Source: a bacterium | GTDB taxonomy: Bacteria > Hydrogenedentota > Hydrogenedentia > Hydrogenedentiales > SLHB01 | NCBI GenBank assembly: GCA_024231375.1 | Contig: JAAEQP010001255.1 | Location: forward strand, 1-11,419 | Reading direction: 5' to 3' | DNA: 11,419 nt | Shown here: positions 2,157 through 10,179 of the stretch, one piece after another | Position numbering within the stretch: position 1 is the first letter of the stretch | Layout: the number at the start of each line of letters is the position of its first letter | Program-made: the position numbers and the translations under genes | Notes under the pieces: model-generated | Told to the model about the DNA's origin: nothing | The model's database searches: none | Seen by the model: the letters and a program-made list of their open reading frames with translations, nothing else

Positions 2157-3527
2157 ATGACAGGGCGAGAACTGATTCTGAAGGCGTTGCGGAACGAGCG
2201 TACGGAACGACCGGCATGGTTGCCGTTCGTCGGCGTGCATGGCGGTAAGATCCTGGGGCTGACGGCGACGGAGTTCTTGCAGTCGGCGGACCACATTGTG
2301 GCGGGGCTGAAGCGGGCGTACGAGTTGTACCAGCCGGACGGACTGCCCATCGTGTTCGACTTGCAGATGGAAGCCGAGATCCTGGGCTGCAACCTGGCGT
2401 GGGCGGACGAGGTTCCACCGTCGGTGGTATCCCACCCGTTGGCGATAGGCACACTGGACGAACTGCCGGCCTTCGACGTGACGCAGGGCCGGTTCCCGCT
2501 GGTCCGCGAGGCGACACGCCGCATGAAAGCCGATCTGGGCGAGGAAGTCGCCTTGTACGGGCTCATCACAGGTCCGTTCACGTTGACGTCGCACCTGCGC
2601 GGAAGCCAGTTGTTCCTGGACATGATGACCGAACCGGACACGGCCAAGTCGATCATGGCGTTCTGCACGGACGTGGCGAAGAAGACGGCCGACTTCTATC
2701 TGGAAGAAGGCGTGGACGTGATTGCGGTGGTGGACCCGATGACAAGCCAGATCTCGCCGCAGCATTTCGATGAGTTTGTGGCTCCGTATTTGAACGAAGT
2801 GTTCTCTCATGTGAAACGGCGTGGCGCGTTTTCGTCGTTGTTCGTGTGCGGCGACGCCACACGCAACCTCGAAGCCATGTGCCGTACGACGTGCGACAAC
2901 GTGTCCATCGATGAGAACATCCCGCTGGATCTGCTCCGCAACCTGAGCGAGAAGTATGGCAAGTCCTTCGGCGGCAACCTGAGACTGACCACGGTGCTGT
3001 TGCTGGGCAAACGTAGCGACGCCATGCTCGACGCCATCAACTGCATCGACATCGGCGGATCGCGCGGATTCATCCTGGCGCCGGGGTGCGACCTTCCCTA
3101 CGGCACGCCCGAGGACAACCTCCAGGCCGTGGCCGAGATGGTCCGCAACGACTATCAACGCCAGATTGCGCGCACATCGGTTCAGGTCACGGAGATGGAG
3201 TCTTTCGATGACTTGGTGTTGCCGGACTACCCTAATGAAGAGACGGTGATCCTGGACGTGATCACCTTGGATTCGTCGGCCTGCGCACCCTGTCTGTACA
3301 TGCTGGACGCGGCCATCAAGGCGTCCGAGAAGTCCCAGGCGCCGGTGACGGTTCGCGAACATAAGATCAAGAGCCGCGAGGGCATCGGGTACATGTGCCG
3401 CCTGGGCGCGAAGAGCATTCCCACCATCTGCGTCGACGGCGAAGTGAAGTTTGCGTCGGTGATACCGGACACGGATACATTGATGAAGATCATTGACGAG
3501 CGGCACGCGGAGAAGACCAAAGGATGA
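2157..3527 (+). CDS. Uroporphyrinogen decarboxylase-fold protein fused to a C-terminal thioredoxin-like domain
   Basis: The 456-residue protein has a UROD-type TIM barrel at about residues 1-345, followed by a thioredoxin/glutaredoxin-like domain at about 360-450. The barrel belongs to the UROD superfamily, which includes heme-pathway decarboxylases and MtaA/MtbA-like cobamide methyltransferases. In the methyltransferases zinc is held by HxC plus a distant Cys. Here the first site reads F229-V-C231-G, so the His is Phe, while the distant Cys is kept (GCDLP, C311). The added domain has a CAPC redox-type motif (C376, C379) and a later SIP that would be the cis-Pro (P422). I place the start at ATG 2157 because GGAG at 2147-2150 gives proper spacing; an in-frame GTG at 2139 would add six residues but has no ribosome site. 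The gene overlaps the CobW-type GTPase by ATGA. Methyl transfer or thiol chemistry is likely, but the substrate is unknown. True heme biosynthesis is unlikely. Confidence 0.85.
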   Translation: MTGRELILKALRNERTERPAWLPFVGVHGGKILGLTATEFLQSADHIVAGLKRAYELYQPDGLPIVFDLQMEAEILGCNLAWADEVPPSVVSHPLAIGTLDELPAFDVTQGRFPLVREATRRMKADLGEEVALYGLITGPFTLTSHLRGSQLFLDMMTEPDTAKSIMAFCTDVAKKTADFYLEEGVDVIAVVDPMTSQISPQHFDEFVAPYLNEVFSHVKRRGAFSSLFVCGDATRNLEAMCRTTCDNVSIDENIPLDLLRNLSEKYGKSFGGNLRLTTVLLLGKRSDAMLDAINCIDIGGSRGFILAPGCDLPYGTPEDNLQAVAEMVRNDYQRQIARTSVQVTEMESFDDLVLPDYPNEETVILDVITLDSSACAPCLYMLDAAIKASEKSQAPVTVREHKIKSREGIGYMCRLGAKSIPTICVDGEVKFASVIPDTDTLMKIIDERHAEKTKG

Positions 3528-4474
3528 TACCGGTCTGTCTGGTGACGGGATTCCTCGGAAGCGGGAAGACCACCTTCCTGCGCCGCATCATCGCGCGTCA
3601 CCCTAACGACAAGATCGTGTACCTGGTCAACGAATTCTCGCCCATCGATGTGGACGGACACGTGCTGGCGTCGGAGACGGGCGACCTGGTGGCCTTGCCG
3701 GGCGGCAGCGTGTTCTGCACGTGCATCGTGACCGAGTTCATCAACGTATTGACCAACATCCCCAAGCGGTTTGCGTCGGACGACGCCCCCATCCATGGCG
3801 TGGTGATCGAGGCGAGCGGCATCGCGAACCCCATGGTCGTGCAGAAGATGCTCCGCGAGACCAGACTGGACGAGGTCTACGAACTGAGCATGGTCGTTAG
3901 CATCGTGGACCCCGAGACCTTTCCCGAACTGGTGAAGATGCTGCCCAACGTGGCCGCCCAGGTGCAGGCCAGCGACACGGTCATCGTGAATAGGGTGGAC
4001 CTGCACAACGAGGAAACCATTGGGCGCGCGGAAGCCGAGGTCCGCGCCATACGGCCGGACGCACAGATCGTGCGCGCCACCCAATGCCAGGTGGACCTGG
4101 ACCTGTTCGGTCCGCCCGCGTCACGCGATCTCGACGGCGAGTACGCGTCGTGTGTGGACCCCAACTACGCCCGGTTGAGTGTGCATCTCAAGGGCGTGAT
4201 CGACGTGGACCGGTTGCGGGCGCTGCTGGACGAGTTGGGAACGGACCTGTACCGGATGAAGGGATTCGCACGAGTCGTCGGCCGGGCCGGGATCGACGGC
4301 CGAATGGCGTTCTTGGACTACTCGTCGGCGGGGCTTGCGGTGCGCGACGCGGCCGACCCGAACGAGGAGCCGGTCCTGGCGTTCATCGTGGCCGGGACCG
4401 CGCAGAACCGCGGGTGGGCGGTCATTGACCGCATCAAGGCGGGCGAAATCGACGCGAACGGACCGTCCCCGTGA
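3524..4474 (+). CDS. CobW/P47K-family GTPase with altered metal-binding motif
   Basis: COG0523 (CobW) proteins are GTPases that act as metal chaperones, with zinc and cobalt members known. The 316-residue product has Walker A GFLGSGKT (9-16), a switch II-like EASG (96-99), the guanine-specificity motif NRVD (156-159, usual form NKxD) and a C-terminal CobW_C-like domain (about 215-310). The usual CxCC metal motif between Walker A and switch II is changed: S62-V-F64-C65-T-C67 leaves only C65 of the three and adds C67. It begins inside the stop of the UROD-fold/thioredoxin gene (ATGA), so the two are probably translated together. A reasonable inference is that it delivers or removes a metal for that enzyme. 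The changed motif may mean a different metal, or a scaffold role. The family call is firm and the role is inferred. Confidence 0.9.
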   Translation: MIPVCLVTGFLGSGKTTFLRRIIARHPNDKIVYLVNEFSPIDVDGHVLASETGDLVALPGGSVFCTCIVTEFINVLTNIPKRFASDDAPIHGVVIEASGIANPMVVQKMLRETRLDEVYELSMVVSIVDPETFPELVKMLPNVAAQVQASDTVIVNRVDLHNEETIGRAEAEVRAIRPDAQIVRATQCQVDLDLFGPPASRDLDGEYASCVDPNYARLSVHLKGVIDVDRLRALLDELGTDLYRMKGFARVVGRAGIDGRMAFLDYSSAGLAVRDAADPNEEPVLAFIVAGTAQNRGWAVIDRIKAGEIDANGPSP

Positions 4475-5415
4475 AATCGCGCGACAATCTCCTGTTCGGT
4501 GTCGGGCTCGCGGTTCTCTTGGCCGCGGGCGCGGTCACCGTGTGGAAGGACTGGCAACGCAAGCATCCGCCCGACACCGGCGGGGGGGAAATCCGGTTCG
4601 GGTTCATCGACAAGACGGGGGAGATCGTCATCCTCGCGCAGTACGAACTCGCCAACGGCTTCAGCGAAGGGTTGGCGTCCGTGCGGATTTCGTTTCGCAC
4701 GGGCTTCATCGACACCCAGGGCAACCTGGTCATCCCACCGCAATACAGCGACGCGGGGGCCTTCTCCGAAGGGTTGGCGGCGGCTCAGATTGACGGCAAG
4801 ATAGGCTTCATCGACAAGGAAGGCATGCTGGTGATCCCCGCCCAATTCGACCGGGCGGGCGTGTTCTCCCAGGGCACGGCCCCGGTTGCGCTGGATGGCC
4901 GGTATGGGTACATCGACAGCACCGGCGACTGGGCCATCGAACCGCGGTACGAGCATGCGTTGCCGTTCACTGAGGGCCTGGGGTGCGTGGTCATTGACGA
5001 CCGATGCGGCTACATCGACGCGTCGGCCAACGTCGTCATCGAACCGCGGTTTGAGGAAGCCGGCCAGTTTGCCAATGATCGCGCCTTCGTGAAGATCGAC
5101 GGACAATGCACCTTTATCGACCGTAGCGGCGCCGTCGTCACCGAGCAGCGATTCAATGGCGTGCAACCGTCGGCGGGAGACTTGACGCCGGTGCTGGTGG
5201 ACCGTCTCTGGGGGTACGCGGACGGAGACGGCGTCGTCCGAATCCAGCCCGGTTACGAGGACGCGGGGCCCTTCCGGGAAGGCCTGGCCCCGGTGAAGAT
5301 CGGTGCGGCCTACGGTTACATCGACGAGACGGGAACCGTGGTCATCGAACCAATGTTCGACAAGGCGTATGGGTTCCGCGACGGGTTGGCGCGGGTGCGC
5401 ATTCGCAAACGGTGA
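4471..5415 (+). CDS. Membrane-anchored WG-repeat protein, eight repeats
   Basis: The 314-residue product starts with one hydrophobic segment (about residues 7-25) preceded by Lys/Arg, consistent with a signal anchor. The remainder, residues 42-314, is eight consecutive 34-residue WG repeats with the pattern GYID..G..VI.P.Y..A..F.EGLA.V, and the eighth ends at the C-terminus. Repeats 5 and 6 are the most worn: repeat 6 lacks the GYID glycine and the EGLA turn. WG repeats form beta-propeller-like or beta-rich surfaces used for binding; no catalytic residues are known. The start is GTG 4471, overlapping the stop of the CobW-type gene (GTGA). No ribosome site is seen, so translation depends on coupling. 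The hydrophobic segment begins right after this start, which supports it. The binding partner is unknown; the coupling suggests a link to the UROD/CobW pair. Confidence 0.9.
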   Translation: MKSRDNLLFGVGLAVLLAAGAVTVWKDWQRKHPPDTGGGEIRFGFIDKTGEIVILAQYELANGFSEGLASVRISFRTGFIDTQGNLVIPPQYSDAGAFSEGLAAAQIDGKIGFIDKEGMLVIPAQFDRAGVFSQGTAPVALDGRYGYIDSTGDWAIEPRYEHALPFTEGLGCVVIDDRCGYIDASANVVIEPRFEEAGQFANDRAFVKIDGQCTFIDRSGAVVTEQRFNGVQPSAGDLTPVLVDRLWGYADGDGVVRIQPGYEDAGPFREGLAPVKIGAAYGYIDETGTVVIEPMFDKAYGFRDGLARVRIRKR

Positions 5416-5454
5416 GGGCGCCCTGGTTCGCCCCTCTCGTGCCGCCGCATGAAC

Positions 5455-5462
5455 AGAAGGAA
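5455..5462 (+). promoter_or_regulatory. Ribosome binding site deciding the DinB-fold start
   Basis: AGAAGGAA lies 6 bases before the ATG at 5469. An in-frame GTG at 5412, which overlaps the WG gene stop as GTGA, has no such site. I therefore prefer the ATG. Confidence 0.6.
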
Positions 5463-5468
5463 GCCCAC

Positions 5469-5978
5469 ATGAATCAGGAACGCCAAATGCTTCAGCATTT
5501 CCTTGCCGCGATCGCCTATCGCACCCAAAAAGCGCTCCGAAACGCACCGCCTGAATTTGCCCCATTCCGAGCCGCCCCCGGTATCCGCACGCCTCATGAG
5601 ATCGTATGCCACATGACAAGCGTGCTGGGCTACGCACGCACGTTCCTGATTGGCGGCACGTGGTGGCCGGACATGGTGGAAGATTTCGACGCAGAAGTCG
5701 ATCGGCTCCATACGGTGCTCACCAGTCTCAGCGAACATCTGGCGAGTGACACGCCCCTTCAGGACGTGACCCCCAAACGGCTGCTTCAAGGTCCGCTCGC
5801 CGACTCCATGAGCCATGCCGGACAACTCGCCATGCTGCGCCGGTTCTTCGGTTCCCCCATTCCCCCCGAGAACTTCGTCATGGCCGACATCCGCGCGGAC
5901 AACACGGGCCCCACACAGCCCGAACCGGCCAGTCCCGACGAAGCATGGTTCGACGCCGAGGGGAATCCGCAGGAGTGA
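5469..5978 (+). CDS. DinB-superfamily four-helix protein, function unknown
   Basis: This 169-residue protein is predominantly helical and fits the DinB/YfiT superfamily, whose members use a surface metal site of His residues. Members include mycothiol- and bacillithiol-dependent S-transferases. The first part (TPHEIVCHM, H48) corresponds to the usual helix-2 His. The MSHAGQL segment (H116) corresponds to the usual H..GQ site, with D112 four residues earlier in place of the more common His. That gives a plausible H/D/H triad. Some DinB proteins use low-molecular-weight thiols, which would suit a neighbourhood with two thioredoxin-fold modules, but that is inference. It lies 53 bases after the WG-repeat gene and is probably the last gene of that operon. 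Confidence 0.7.
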   Translation: MNQERQMLQHFLAAIAYRTQKALRNAPPEFAPFRAAPGIRTPHEIVCHMTSVLGYARTFLIGGTWWPDMVEDFDAEVDRLHTVLTSLSEHLASDTPLQDVTPKRLLQGPLADSMSHAGQLAMLRRFFGSPIPPENFVMADIRADNTGPTQPEPASPDEAWFDAEGNPQE

Positions 5979-6121: not shown

Positions 6122-6331
6122 ATGACGTACAAAGGCCACGTCCAGAACGGCGTAGTTGTACTGGATGACCCCGTGAATCTGGCAGATGGCGCACGTGTGC
6201 GCATCGAGGTCGTCCAGGAAGCGCAATCGGAGGCCTTGCACCCGGAGATCCTGCGCTTCACAGGTGTGCTGCCGCCGGACATCGACGCGCGCGCCGAATA
6301 TGCTGACGGCGTCGCGAAGAAACACGCATGA
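6122..6331 (+). CDS. AF2212-like (DUF104-type) antitoxin
   Basis: The 69-residue protein opens with the pattern TYKGHVQNGVVVLDDPVNL, followed by ADGARVRIEV, typical of small beta-strand AF2212-like antitoxins that pair with PIN toxins. In these systems the antitoxin binds and blocks the toxin, and often represses its own promoter. The C-terminal part (about 36-69) is more polar and is probably the toxin-binding tail. A good ribosome site (AAGGA, 6114-6118) precedes the ATG. Its stop overlaps the toxin ATG (ATGA), as usual for coupled toxin-antitoxin genes. The DNA-binding ability of this type is not certain. Confidence 0.8.
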   Translation: MTYKGHVQNGVVVLDDPVNLADGARVRIEVVQEAQSEALHPEILRFTGVLPPDIDARAEYADGVAKKHA

Positions 6332-6744
6332 AGGTTATGTTCGACACGAACATCCTTCTGGACGTCTTCCAGAATCGCCAGCCCCACTATGCGGACTCGG
6401 CTGGGTGTCTCAACAAGGCAATCCACGGGGACATCGAGGGCTACATTCCCGCGCACGTGTTGACTACGTTCTACTATGTGCTGAAGAAACACCGCGACGC
6501 GCAGACGGCGCGGGATGCCGTGACTTGGCTGTTGGAGCGTCTCAGAGTGGCTTCGTGCGACCATGCGGTGCTCGAGGAAGCCTGCCGGTGCGAGATGTCC
6601 GATTATGAAGACGCCGTTGTGGCGGCATCGGCCCAGCAGGCAGGGTGTACACACATCCTAACACGCAACGCCAGCGATTTCGCCAAGTCGCCCGTTCCTG
6701 TCGTCAGCCCCCCAGATCTGCTTGGGCAACTCACGAACTCCTGA
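6328..6744 (+). CDS. PIN-domain ribonuclease toxin (VapC-like)
   Basis: PIN toxins are metal-dependent ribonucleases that cut tRNA, rRNA or mRNA when the antitoxin is lost. The 138-residue protein fits the small PIN family: FDTN with D6 near the start, DYED at 92-95 (D95 probably the conserved acid), and TRNASDF at 112-118 (D117). In related proteins a second acid often sits in the segment before the tyrosine pair (for example S-I-T-D-I-Y-Y). Here that segment is VLTTFYYVL and the position is T47. So three of four expected acidic positions are seen; this subgroup does vary at that site. It overlaps the antitoxin by ATGA. Confidence 0.85.
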   Translation: MKVMFDTNILLDVFQNRQPHYADSAGCLNKAIHGDIEGYIPAHVLTTFYYVLKKHRDAQTARDAVTWLLERLRVASCDHAVLEEACRCEMSDYEDAVVAASAQQAGCTHILTRNASDFAKSPVPVVSPPDLLGQLTNS

Positions 6745-8725: not shown

Positions 8726-8980
8726 TCAGAGGCCGAAGAGCCCGCGGGCGAAGGCTTCCGAGAACGGTTGCCCCGGTTCGTAGCCGCGCACCCATTCGCC
8801 ATCGATGACGAGATAGGGGACGCCCAGCTTGCCGGTCTTCTGCTTCAATTCCTCGCCATAGGCGGGGTTGTCTCTGATGTCCCGGTTCTCGTACTCGATG
8901 CCGTTCGCGTCCATGAACGCTTTCAAGAGTTGGCAATCGCCGCAGAGTTTCCCCGAATAGACAATGACCTGTTTGGACAT
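8726..8980 (-). CDS. Glutaredoxin-like protein with CGDC active site
   Basis: The 84-residue protein has the glutaredoxin/NrdH fold: an N-terminal strand, the CxxC motif C13-G-D-C16, the cis-proline loop GVP (P55), and the expected short length. The Asp inside CGDC is unusual (CPYC or CPWC is common), which may change redox potential or metal binding. Ribosome site AGGAG lies just upstream on the minus strand. It is convergent with the epimerase gene (16 bases between stops) and divergent from the UROD-fold gene at 9133. The 152 bases between must hold the promoters for both. It may supply reducing power to the neighbouring enzymes. Confidence 0.85.
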   Translation of the reverse strand: MSKQVIVYSGKLCGDCQLLKAFMDANGIEYENRDIRDNPAYGEELKQKTGKLGVPYLVIDGEWVRGYEPGQPFSEAFARGLFGL

Positions 8981-9132
8981 GACGTGCTCCTGTCTTCGTA
9001 TTCGTTTCCTCGTAGTCTAACAAACGCGGAGTGCCGATCCATCCCTGCCGAAGGCCAAGTGGCAAATCCGGTCCACCGCAATGTATCGTTGTGCCTACCA
9101 ATACGAACCGGCCACCGGACCAGGGAGGAACT

Positions 9133-10179
9133 ATGGCGTACTCTGGAGTGATGGACGATATCCGCCGTGCCGTGGCGCTGCAACGTCCGGAGCGGCTGCC
9201 CGTGTTCGTGTGCAGCGAGGAGATGGACGTCCGCGTCTGCGGCAGCCGTTACGACCGGTACAACTCGGACGCGGCCGAGATGGCGCGCGTGCAGATCGAG
9301 GCGATCGAACGGTTCGACTACGACTGGGCGTGGCTCCAGGTCGACGACTGCCTGGAGTTTGAGCCCCTGGGCATAGGAGTGAAAGGCGAAGGCGATATTC
9401 TCCCCGCCACCTGCGAATACCTCCCCATCACGGACGCGTCGCTCGCCGACCTTCGGCAACACGGGTACCGCGTAGAGGGCCGTATGCAGGTGCTCCTGGA
9501 TGCCATCGCCGCCGTGAAGGACCATTTCGGCGACACGGTGTGCGTTACCGGACGGACCGCCGCGCCCTTCAGTTCCGTGGCGCTGGCGTTCGGTCTGGAC
9601 GACACCGTGACGATGCCCTACACCCAGCCCGATTTCCTCCGGGAAGCCCTTGTCGTCTTCGAGGAGTACCAAACGCAGTTTGGACTCGACCAACTGAAGG
9701 CCGGCGCCGATGCGATCTGGTTCGGCGACTGCAATGCCTCGGGCCACCTCATCAGCCCGGACACCTACCGCGAATTTGCCATGGAACCCGCGCGCCGCGT
9801 GAGCGCCGCCTACCAGGAGGCCGACGGCATTGTCATCTACCACGCCAGTGAGGAATTGCCCGGCTGTCTCGACCTGCAGGCGGACGCGGGGTTTTCCATC
9901 TTGAGTGTGGGCCCCGGGCTGGACATGGAGACCGCGCGCGCGACGGTGGCAGGCCGGGTATGCCTGTCAGGGAATGTCGACCCCATTCACACCCTCGCGA
10001 ACGGGACGCCCGACGCCGTGCGGGCCGAGGTCGAACGAATCGTGACCCGCATCAGTTGCCACGGCAGCCACGTAATGAACTCAGGCGAGATGGTGCCGCG
10101 CCACACGCCCGAGGTAAACGTGGAGACCTTCGTCGAGACCGCGCGCAACCAGTGGGCGGATTCGGCGCAGCAGCAGTAG
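9133..10179 (+). CDS. UROD-fold protein of the methyltransferase-like branch, zinc ligands changed
   Basis: The 348-residue protein is a full-length UROD-type barrel. Family marks include GNVDP (280-284) and the C-terminal-helix segment after it. In MtaA-like relatives HxC and a later Cys (SxGC) hold zinc. Here the first site is H237-A-S239, and the later site is SGEMVP with Glu (E319) where Cys is expected, so both cysteines are missing while the His remains. That argues against standard zinc-activated thiol methylation. I chose ATG 9133 because GGGAGGAA at 9123-9130 gives good spacing; the upstream in-frame GTG 9031 has none. It shares its upstream region with the divergent glutaredoxin. 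Substrate unknown. Confidence 0.85.
   Translation: MAYSGVMDDIRRAVALQRPERLPVFVCSEEMDVRVCGSRYDRYNSDAAEMARVQIEAIERFDYDWAWLQVDDCLEFEPLGIGVKGEGDILPATCEYLPITDASLADLRQHGYRVEGRMQVLLDAIAAVKDHFGDTVCVTGRTAAPFSSVALAFGLDDTVTMPYTQPDFLREALVVFEEYQTQFGLDQLKAGADAIWFGDCNASGHLISPDTYREFAMEPARRVSAAYQEADGIVIYHASEELPGCLDLQADAGFSILSVGPGLDMETARATVAGRVCLSGNVDPIHTLANGTPDAVRAEVERIVTRISCHGSHVMNSGEMVPRHTPEVNVETFVETARNQWADSAQQQ

Follow-up and report, generated by a model that had tools for sequence, protein, structure and literature searches.

The window analysed here comprises positions 1 to 11,419 of contig JAAEQP010001255.1 of a Hydrogenedentota bacterium (assembly GCA_024231375.1). Our subject is a pair of overlapping genes, which encode a uroporphyrinogen decarboxylase-type (UROD) barrel fused to a thioredoxin-like domain and a CobW-type GTPase. 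The initial annotation had described three overlapping open reading frames (ORFs) at this place, the third one encoding a WG-repeat protein, and this description was confirmed by ORF analysis, Pfam, family profiles and structure models. The frames starting at 2157 (ATG), 3524 (ATG) and 4471 (GTG) are all open on the + strand (Table 1). The sequence gggagaagg lies directly 5' of the first ATG, and the stop and start codons overlap as ATGA at 3524 and as GTGA at 4471 when the sequence is read. The conserved unit consists of two of these genes, the fusion and the GTPase, and their association is well supported.

The fusion protein is closest to MtaA both in sequence and in fold. Specifically, in the AlphaFold2 model of the fusion the mean pLDDT is 91.8 over the whole chain, with lower values (55–85) in the linker around residues 340–360, and the nearest solved fold to the predicted barrel is that of MtaA 4ay7 (Foldseek E 9.8e-22, TM 0.91 by target length). 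The thioredoxin part taken alone is below the Pfam cut-off (PF13192, 16.8 vs 24.8 bits); the family profile matches the solved thioredoxins 1nho (1e-6) and 1fo5 (6.5e-6), and CxxC is kept in all 87 sequences that align at the thioredoxin site. Relatives in the database, where a name is given, are called uroporphyrinogen decarboxylase (family protein), MtaA/CmuA family methyltransferase, methylcobamide:CoM methyltransferase MtaA or hypothetical protein. HemE, the uroporphyrinogen decarboxylase itself, was rejected as an assignment (TIGR01464, 81.7 bits vs a cut-off of 302.95).

At what we take to be the exact zinc-ligand positions of MtaA, alignment to 4ay7 places a Phe of the fusion on the His of LHICG, and both cysteines align with the zinc cysteines of MtaA. 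Cys231 is kept in 102 of 102 aligned barrels, and position 311 has Cys in 92 and an in-frame TGA in the other 10. At the zinc-histidine position 100 of the 102 have Phe and the remaining 2 have Leu. His-Cys-Cys has been given as the set of zinc ligands for the MtaA family in the excerpted text of PMC10418091, and a canonical MtaA was rejected for the loss of the zinc histidine. Three neighbouring URODs that were inspected keep the His (LHICG at loci L030 and L018 of the searches described below, IHTCG at L041). All 103 aligned family members have His146 of the fusion, which aligns with an Asp in MtaA; that it might be a substitute metal ligand is our guess from the alignment. Note that the window contains a second URO-D protein (9031–10179, +), which by eye has YHAS and NSGE at the HxC and PGC positions, and both zinc cysteines seem to be missing from it.

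The second gene encodes a G3E GTPase (PF02492, cobW, E 1.2e-33) with the motif GFLGSGKT. The model of the CobW C-terminal domain (PF07683) scores 21.3 bits against it, with a cut-off of 22. The AlphaFold2 model has a pLDDT of 91.1 and its best fold match is YjiA (1nij, E 2.6e-16), with a TM of only 0.44–0.47 and a root-mean-square deviation of 19–20, so the two domains are set differently; MeaB is among the weaker fold matches. The sequence GSxFCxC occupies the position at which COG0523 proteins carry the metal motif CxCC; its S62, F64, C65 and C67 are each present in 39 of 39 aligned GTPases. The CXCC of COG0523 is missing here, and the FCxC type was found in 57 of the 60 neighbouring GTPases whose motif was read.

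Table 1. Coordinates of the features discussed. Positions are those of the window, except for the last four lines, where they refer to the named loci of other genomes.
Feature	Position	Strand	Basis or remark
UROD barrel fused to thioredoxin-like domain, 456 aa	2157..3527	+	
URO-D (MtaA/CmuA-like) barrel, residues 4-330	2166..3146	+	Pfam PF01208 E 3.5e-59; fold match 4ay7
His146	2592..2594	+	alignment of family members and MtaA
F229-V-C231	2841..2849	+	His-x-Cys zinc motif of MtaA, Phe instead of His
Cys311 of PGCD, second MtaA zinc cysteine	3087..3089	+	in-frame TGA in 10 relatives
Thioredoxin-like domain, CAPC = residues 376-379	3246..3521	+	alignment, model
CobW/COG0523-type G3E GTPase, 316 aa	3524..4474	+	Pfam, fold match YjiA
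GSVFCTC, at place of COG0523 CxCC metal motif	3704..3724	+	
WG-repeat protein, N-terminal hydrophobic stretch (by eye)	4471..5415	+	lineage-specific neighbour
DinB/mycothiol-transferase-like ORF	5412-5978	+	under Pfam cut-offs
TGA-preceded thioredoxin-like ORF, L073	1175-1405		
TGA-preceded thioredoxin-like ORFs, L074	742-978, 1085-1315		
TGA-preceded thioredoxin-like ORF, L075	2578-2808	-	
TGA-preceded thioredoxin-like ORFs, L117	261-506, 596-835	-	

The initial annotation had asked for the same gene order in unrelated genomes. A first scan with exact peptide patterns of the first protein, made on a collection with one genome per species and favouring close relatives, gave 45 loci. A relative of the GTPase lies downstream on the same strand in 38 of them, and since the junction is exactly −4 in 24 of these 38 pairs of other genomes, the overlap of fusion and GTPase is beyond chance. 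The WG gene stands beside the pair in only one of the 45 other loci, L029, which is the closest relative (76% identical) and also has an ATGA overlap of the GTPase stop and the WG start (8333). The claim of a shared order therefore stands for fusion and GTPase and not for the WG gene; we rejected the WG protein as a member of the system, and with it the description of the unit as membrane-linked falls away.

A profile of 18 fusions was also searched against phylum samples, which are named here by the phyla of their seed records. Matches were obtained in 24/68 of the Hydrogenedentota sample (seed G001), 11/294 of Planctomycetota (G002), 20/398 of Bacillota (G003), 7/345 of Desulfobulbaceae (G005) and 7/121 of Armatimonadota (G007); the single matches in the samples of Bacteroidota (G004, 1/345) and Acidobacteria (G010, 1/149) are the seeds themselves. 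Dropping 24 duplicates left 102 distinct loci of 126. Of these, 84 count as fusions by a match that reaches the end of the thioredoxin domain, four of them without part of the front (L037, L082, L090, L091), and the fusion L059, whose match stops at the TGA, stands outside the 84. A CobW-type GTPase adjoins 58 of the 84 distinct fusions, once upstream, in at least six phyla. Of the remaining fusions, one lies near a contig end, and for 25 no GTPase adjoins within the visible sequence, which extends some 1.4 kb or further downstream. The motif of the adjoining GTPase is of the FCxC type in 56 of the 58, the others being L061, which has a different motif, and L115, a weak match with its motif unread.

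The pair is also associated at the level of genomes. The GTPase was searched in fusion-bearing genomes, 19 of them without a neighbouring copy, and in fusion-negative ones, and the motif was read on the best locus per genome. An FCxC-type GTPase is present in 49 of 58 fusion-bearing genomes searched as compared to 3 of 136 without the fusion (Fisher p 7e-33), kinship being ignored in this and the following p values and 'fusion-negative' status not being absolute, as only some candidates per genome were scored in the phylum samples. Among genomes with the fusion it is found in 20/24 Hydrogenedentota (adjacent in 13, elsewhere in the genome in 7 of the other 11), 12/13 Bacillota, 11/11 Planctomycetota, 4/7 Armatimonadota and 2/3 Desulfobacterota, and among fusion-negative genomes in 1/21, 1/60 and 1/55. 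In G1464, one of these three, the thioredoxin end of a fusion is cut by the contig end (L182). A GTPase elsewhere was located in 13 of the 19 searched fusion genomes without an adjoining copy. Where the barrel has no fused thioredoxin, the GTPase was found in 3/7 genomes of the Bacillota sample and in 1/4 of the Desulfobacterota sample. The motif had been widened post hoc, admitting GQxFCxC of four Bacillota genomes and G779 and GSMLCRC of G704; the strict motif GS[IVL]FCxC gives 43/58 vs 3/136 (Fisher p 1e-26). Without a motif filter, at a threshold of 1e-30, the numbers are 50/58 vs 18/136 (Fisher p 1e-22). These 18 fusion-negative genomes are distributed as 1/21, 12/60 and 5/55, and 15 of them were set aside by the motif as CxCC type.

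At 11 of 15 UROD-only loci a thioredoxin gene (TLDSxxCAxC or a near variant) follows directly downstream of the unfused barrel, so the fused domain exists also as a separate partner. The HUIPC thioredoxin-like (seleno)protein model NF047660 is among the best-scoring NCBIfam models for these separate genes and matches the fused domain weakly, with scores of 22 to 44 bits that are far under its cut-off of 105. Corrinoid-related genes found around the 45 loci are those for a corrinoid protein (12 loci), RACo/RamA activase (9), DUF1638 (5), MetH-activation domain (4) and homocysteine S-methyltransferase (3). In L030 and L032 (Bacteroidota) a URO-D protein, a B12-binding protein, a homocysteine methyltransferase and a MetH-activation domain lie together with the fusion and the GTPase, and L008 (Hydrogenedentota) has the same set without the MetH-activation domain. 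These clusters resemble a methionine synthase split into genes, in which the URODs are candidates for the methyl-donor step. L039 is adjoined by pyrrolysine-biosynthesis-like genes (PylD N-domain, E 1.7e-23).

Ten loci (L059, L070, L071, L073, L074, L075, L078, L117, L118, L119) have a TGA precisely in place of the Cys311 codon, and the reading frame stays open beyond it. One of them, L059, is a complete fusion and has an FCxC GTPase next to it. L117, L118 and L119 have a second TGA near the barrel end, where the Cys relatives end, and this one was taken as a stop. The machinery for selenocysteine (Sec) was judged by SelB alone, which is over its curated cut-off in all 10 TGA genomes (as a fragment in G093) vs 4 of 8 others (p 0.023). 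Because an in-frame TGA at the Cys position occurs together with SelB in all ten genomes, it is likely from the sequences that these relatives carry Sec at position 311. In a test for a SECIS hairpin, folds of the 51 nucleotides after the TGA did not separate TGA loci from 16 Cys loci (1/10 beyond z −2, mononucleotide shuffles), so the case for Sec rests on position, open frame and SelB. In a tree of the family (5 fragments dropped of 103 rows) Cys and Sec forms are mixed, with 5 label changes, 3 of them forced by supported branches, when the Sec label is counted only against 9 other labelled rows; its clustering is not beyond shuffles (71/500 as low). G093 holds one form of each kind (Cys in L069, Sec in L078). 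When L073 read through the TGA was used as a query, 89 of the best 120 database proteins end in ...PG with the codon beyond unread, 86 of these at 309–312 residues, just short of position 311; Cys stands at this position in 24 of the remaining 31. Sec-UROD genes thus appear to be deposited as truncated proteins. The deposited protein of Desulfomonile tiedjei (P0185) has 310 residues and likewise stops after ...FAPG. Moreover, small thioredoxin-like ORFs near the Sec-URODs L073, L074, L075 and L117 carry TGA in frame where CxxC would have its first Cys (UxPC, UxAC), which would place selenium on both partners. Two of them were scanned and are related to NF047660, under its cut-off.

With MtaA/MtbA (SCMT) of methanogens the fusion shares the fold, both zinc cysteines and, in part of the family, corrinoid neighbours. 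It differs from them by the Phe in place of the His of HxC, by the C-terminal thioredoxin and by the family's own FDLQMEAE and GPFTLxxHL. Four NCBIfam models score under their cut-offs (PRK06252 155 vs 244 bits, TIGR01463 153.5 vs 235.4, MtaA 135.2 vs 400, MtbA 136.5 vs 600). Bacterial SCMT homologs, Mlp1–3 of the type 1 mlp clusters, were reported in 2023 by Kountz and Balskus (PMC10418091). Like the fusion, these are bacterial homologs of UROD-superfamily corrinoid methyltransferases, and the excerpted text links them to methyl-sulfur or methyl-selenide. Unlike the fusion family, they are reported there to have His-Cys-Cys, with the exception of several Mlps1; the same excerpts contain no mention of CobW or GTPase, and thioredoxin occurs only in the title of a reference. 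A type 1 mlp cluster combines Mlp2 and Mlp3, typically with a corrinoid protein and Ram, while in this comparison by gene content the scanned proteins of our window include no B12-binding or RACo domain. For the GTPase, Haas et al. 2009 placed COG0523 subfamily 13 beside mtaA/mtaB/mtaC (PMC2770081, in excerpt), and the GTPase described here likewise adjoins corrinoid methyltransferase genes. COG0523 is said in these excerpts to have CXCC throughout, which differs from the GSxFCxC of our GTPase. The location of COG0523 beside corrinoid methyltransferases (2009) and the bacterial SCMT homologs (2023) are thus already known. Our searches of open-licence PMC papers turned up no description of the thioredoxin fusion, of an FCxC GTPase or of Sec-UROD. 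A Sec branch of the UROD superfamily was not found with the terms tried on the 2026 review of prokaryotic selenoproteins (PMC13188914), and uroporphyrinogen is unmentioned in the excerpts of that review, PMC12013277, PMC8318568 and PMC9312934.

The initial annotation had further suggested a metal-dependent methyl or thiol chemistry with the GTPase serving the enzyme, which is plausible in view of the MtaA fold, the corrinoid genes near part of the relatives and the published position of COG0523 genes (PMC2770081, in excerpt). We give about an even chance to the reading that the fusion is a corrinoid-linked methyl-transfer enzyme with a Cys-Cys/Sec site, a reductant domain of its own and its own metal-loading GTPase, where the metal, the methyl transfer, the reductant role and the client of the GTPase are what we infer. 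The MtaA-like barrel would handle the methyl group that passes between a corrinoid protein and a soft centre, either a thiol or a selenol. Cys231 and Cys311 (Sec in relatives) would be the catalytic pair; the metal that they may hold, zinc or a different soft one, would sit in a site remade to do without the usual histidine, and the private COG0523-type GTPase would load the metal into the barrel. The fused thioredoxin domain could keep the thiolate/selenolate pair reduced; alternatively it may provide the barrel with a thiol, a role filled by coenzyme M in methanogens. A bolder version, in our view unlikely, is a new family of thiol/selenol methyl enzymes in which the thioredoxin domain replaces coenzyme M: its CxxC thiol would serve as an internal partner, for methyl groups or electrons, to a Cys-Cys/Sec site filled by the private FCxC GTPase, and the Sec branch would have stayed unseen with gene callers cutting at TGA.

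Several observations weigh against corrinoid-linked methyl transfer with a dedicated metal-loading GTPase. The His-Cys-Cys set is broken in all 102 aligned barrels, and the GTPase has lost its CxCC as well, so possibly zinc is bound by neither protein. In the window no B12-binding, RACo or other corrinoid-system gene was found among the proteins scanned. Any such gene lies near 15 of the 45 relatives, a count to be read without a background rate for UROD genes at large, and in the other 30 none is in view within flanks of at most 6 kb, often less. Next to L061, L069 and L117 lies a GTPase with CxCC or CxCG instead of FCxC; possibly the partner has been replaced there. Finally, 9 of 58 fusion genomes have no FCxC GTPase, including 3/7 of the Armatimonadota sample, which are drafts.

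The loss of the zinc histidine, Phe in 100 of 102 barrels, would also suit a redox enzyme that is not a methyltransferase. Cys231 and Cys/Sec311 would then alternate between the dithiol state and a disulfide or selenylsulfide, with the thioredoxin reducing them at each turn; a substrate would be reduced in the barrel, and the GTPase would load a cofactor other than zinc. Selenocysteine together with thioredoxin usually signals redox chemistry, and for this reason, together with the lost histidine, we regard this as a serious rival. It gains from the TGA at the Cys311 codon in ten loci, from the thioredoxin being fused or adjacent and from the TGA codons in the extra thioredoxin-like ORFs by L073, L074, L075 and L117. 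We nevertheless hold it to be rather unlikely, as both cysteines align with the zinc cysteines of MtaA and corrinoid, RACo, DUF1638, MetH-activation or homocysteine methyltransferase genes occur near a third of the scanned relatives.

MeaB-type G3E GTPases load or reactivate B12 enzymes, and the GTPase and the barrel might together do the same for a corrinoid protein. MeaB is indeed among the weaker fold matches, and at some of the loci a corrinoid protein is clustered with an activase or an activation domain. This seems quite improbable to us, since no corrinoid protein is seen around 33 of the 45 loci and the conserved active-site cysteines and the thioredoxin favour catalysis by the barrel itself. 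A three-gene membrane-linked unit would account for the overlapping starts in the window and for the ATGA overlap of GTPase and WG genes in L029. The WG gene stands by the pair in 1 of 45 other loci, and we consider this last explanation very improbable. The initial annotation missed that a GTG at 5412, in the next ORF, overlaps the WG stop just as at the other two junctions, and the limits of a unit cannot be drawn from such overlaps alone. Fusion and GTPase make a clean candidate enzyme–metallochaperone pair with which to study the cargo of COG0523 GTPases and its recipients. The module suggests MtaA-type chemistry free of coenzyme M in bacteria, and the pair together with its Sec relatives points to an unexplored sulfur/selenium-based methyl chemistry.

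Regarding the rest of the window, the WG protein has seven WG repeats (Pfam, E 1e-85), and for the DinB-like ORF the ATG at 5469 is by eye the likelier start. Scans for tRNA and Rfam families gave no matches in the window. A glutaredoxin with CGDC (8726–8980, −) is flanked by a sugar-isomerase-like gene and the gene of the second URO-D protein. A 69-residue ORF (6122–6331) shares an ATGA overlap with the gene of a PIN-domain protein (6328–6744), both on the + strand within 6122–6744, and the two look like a toxin-antitoxin pair.

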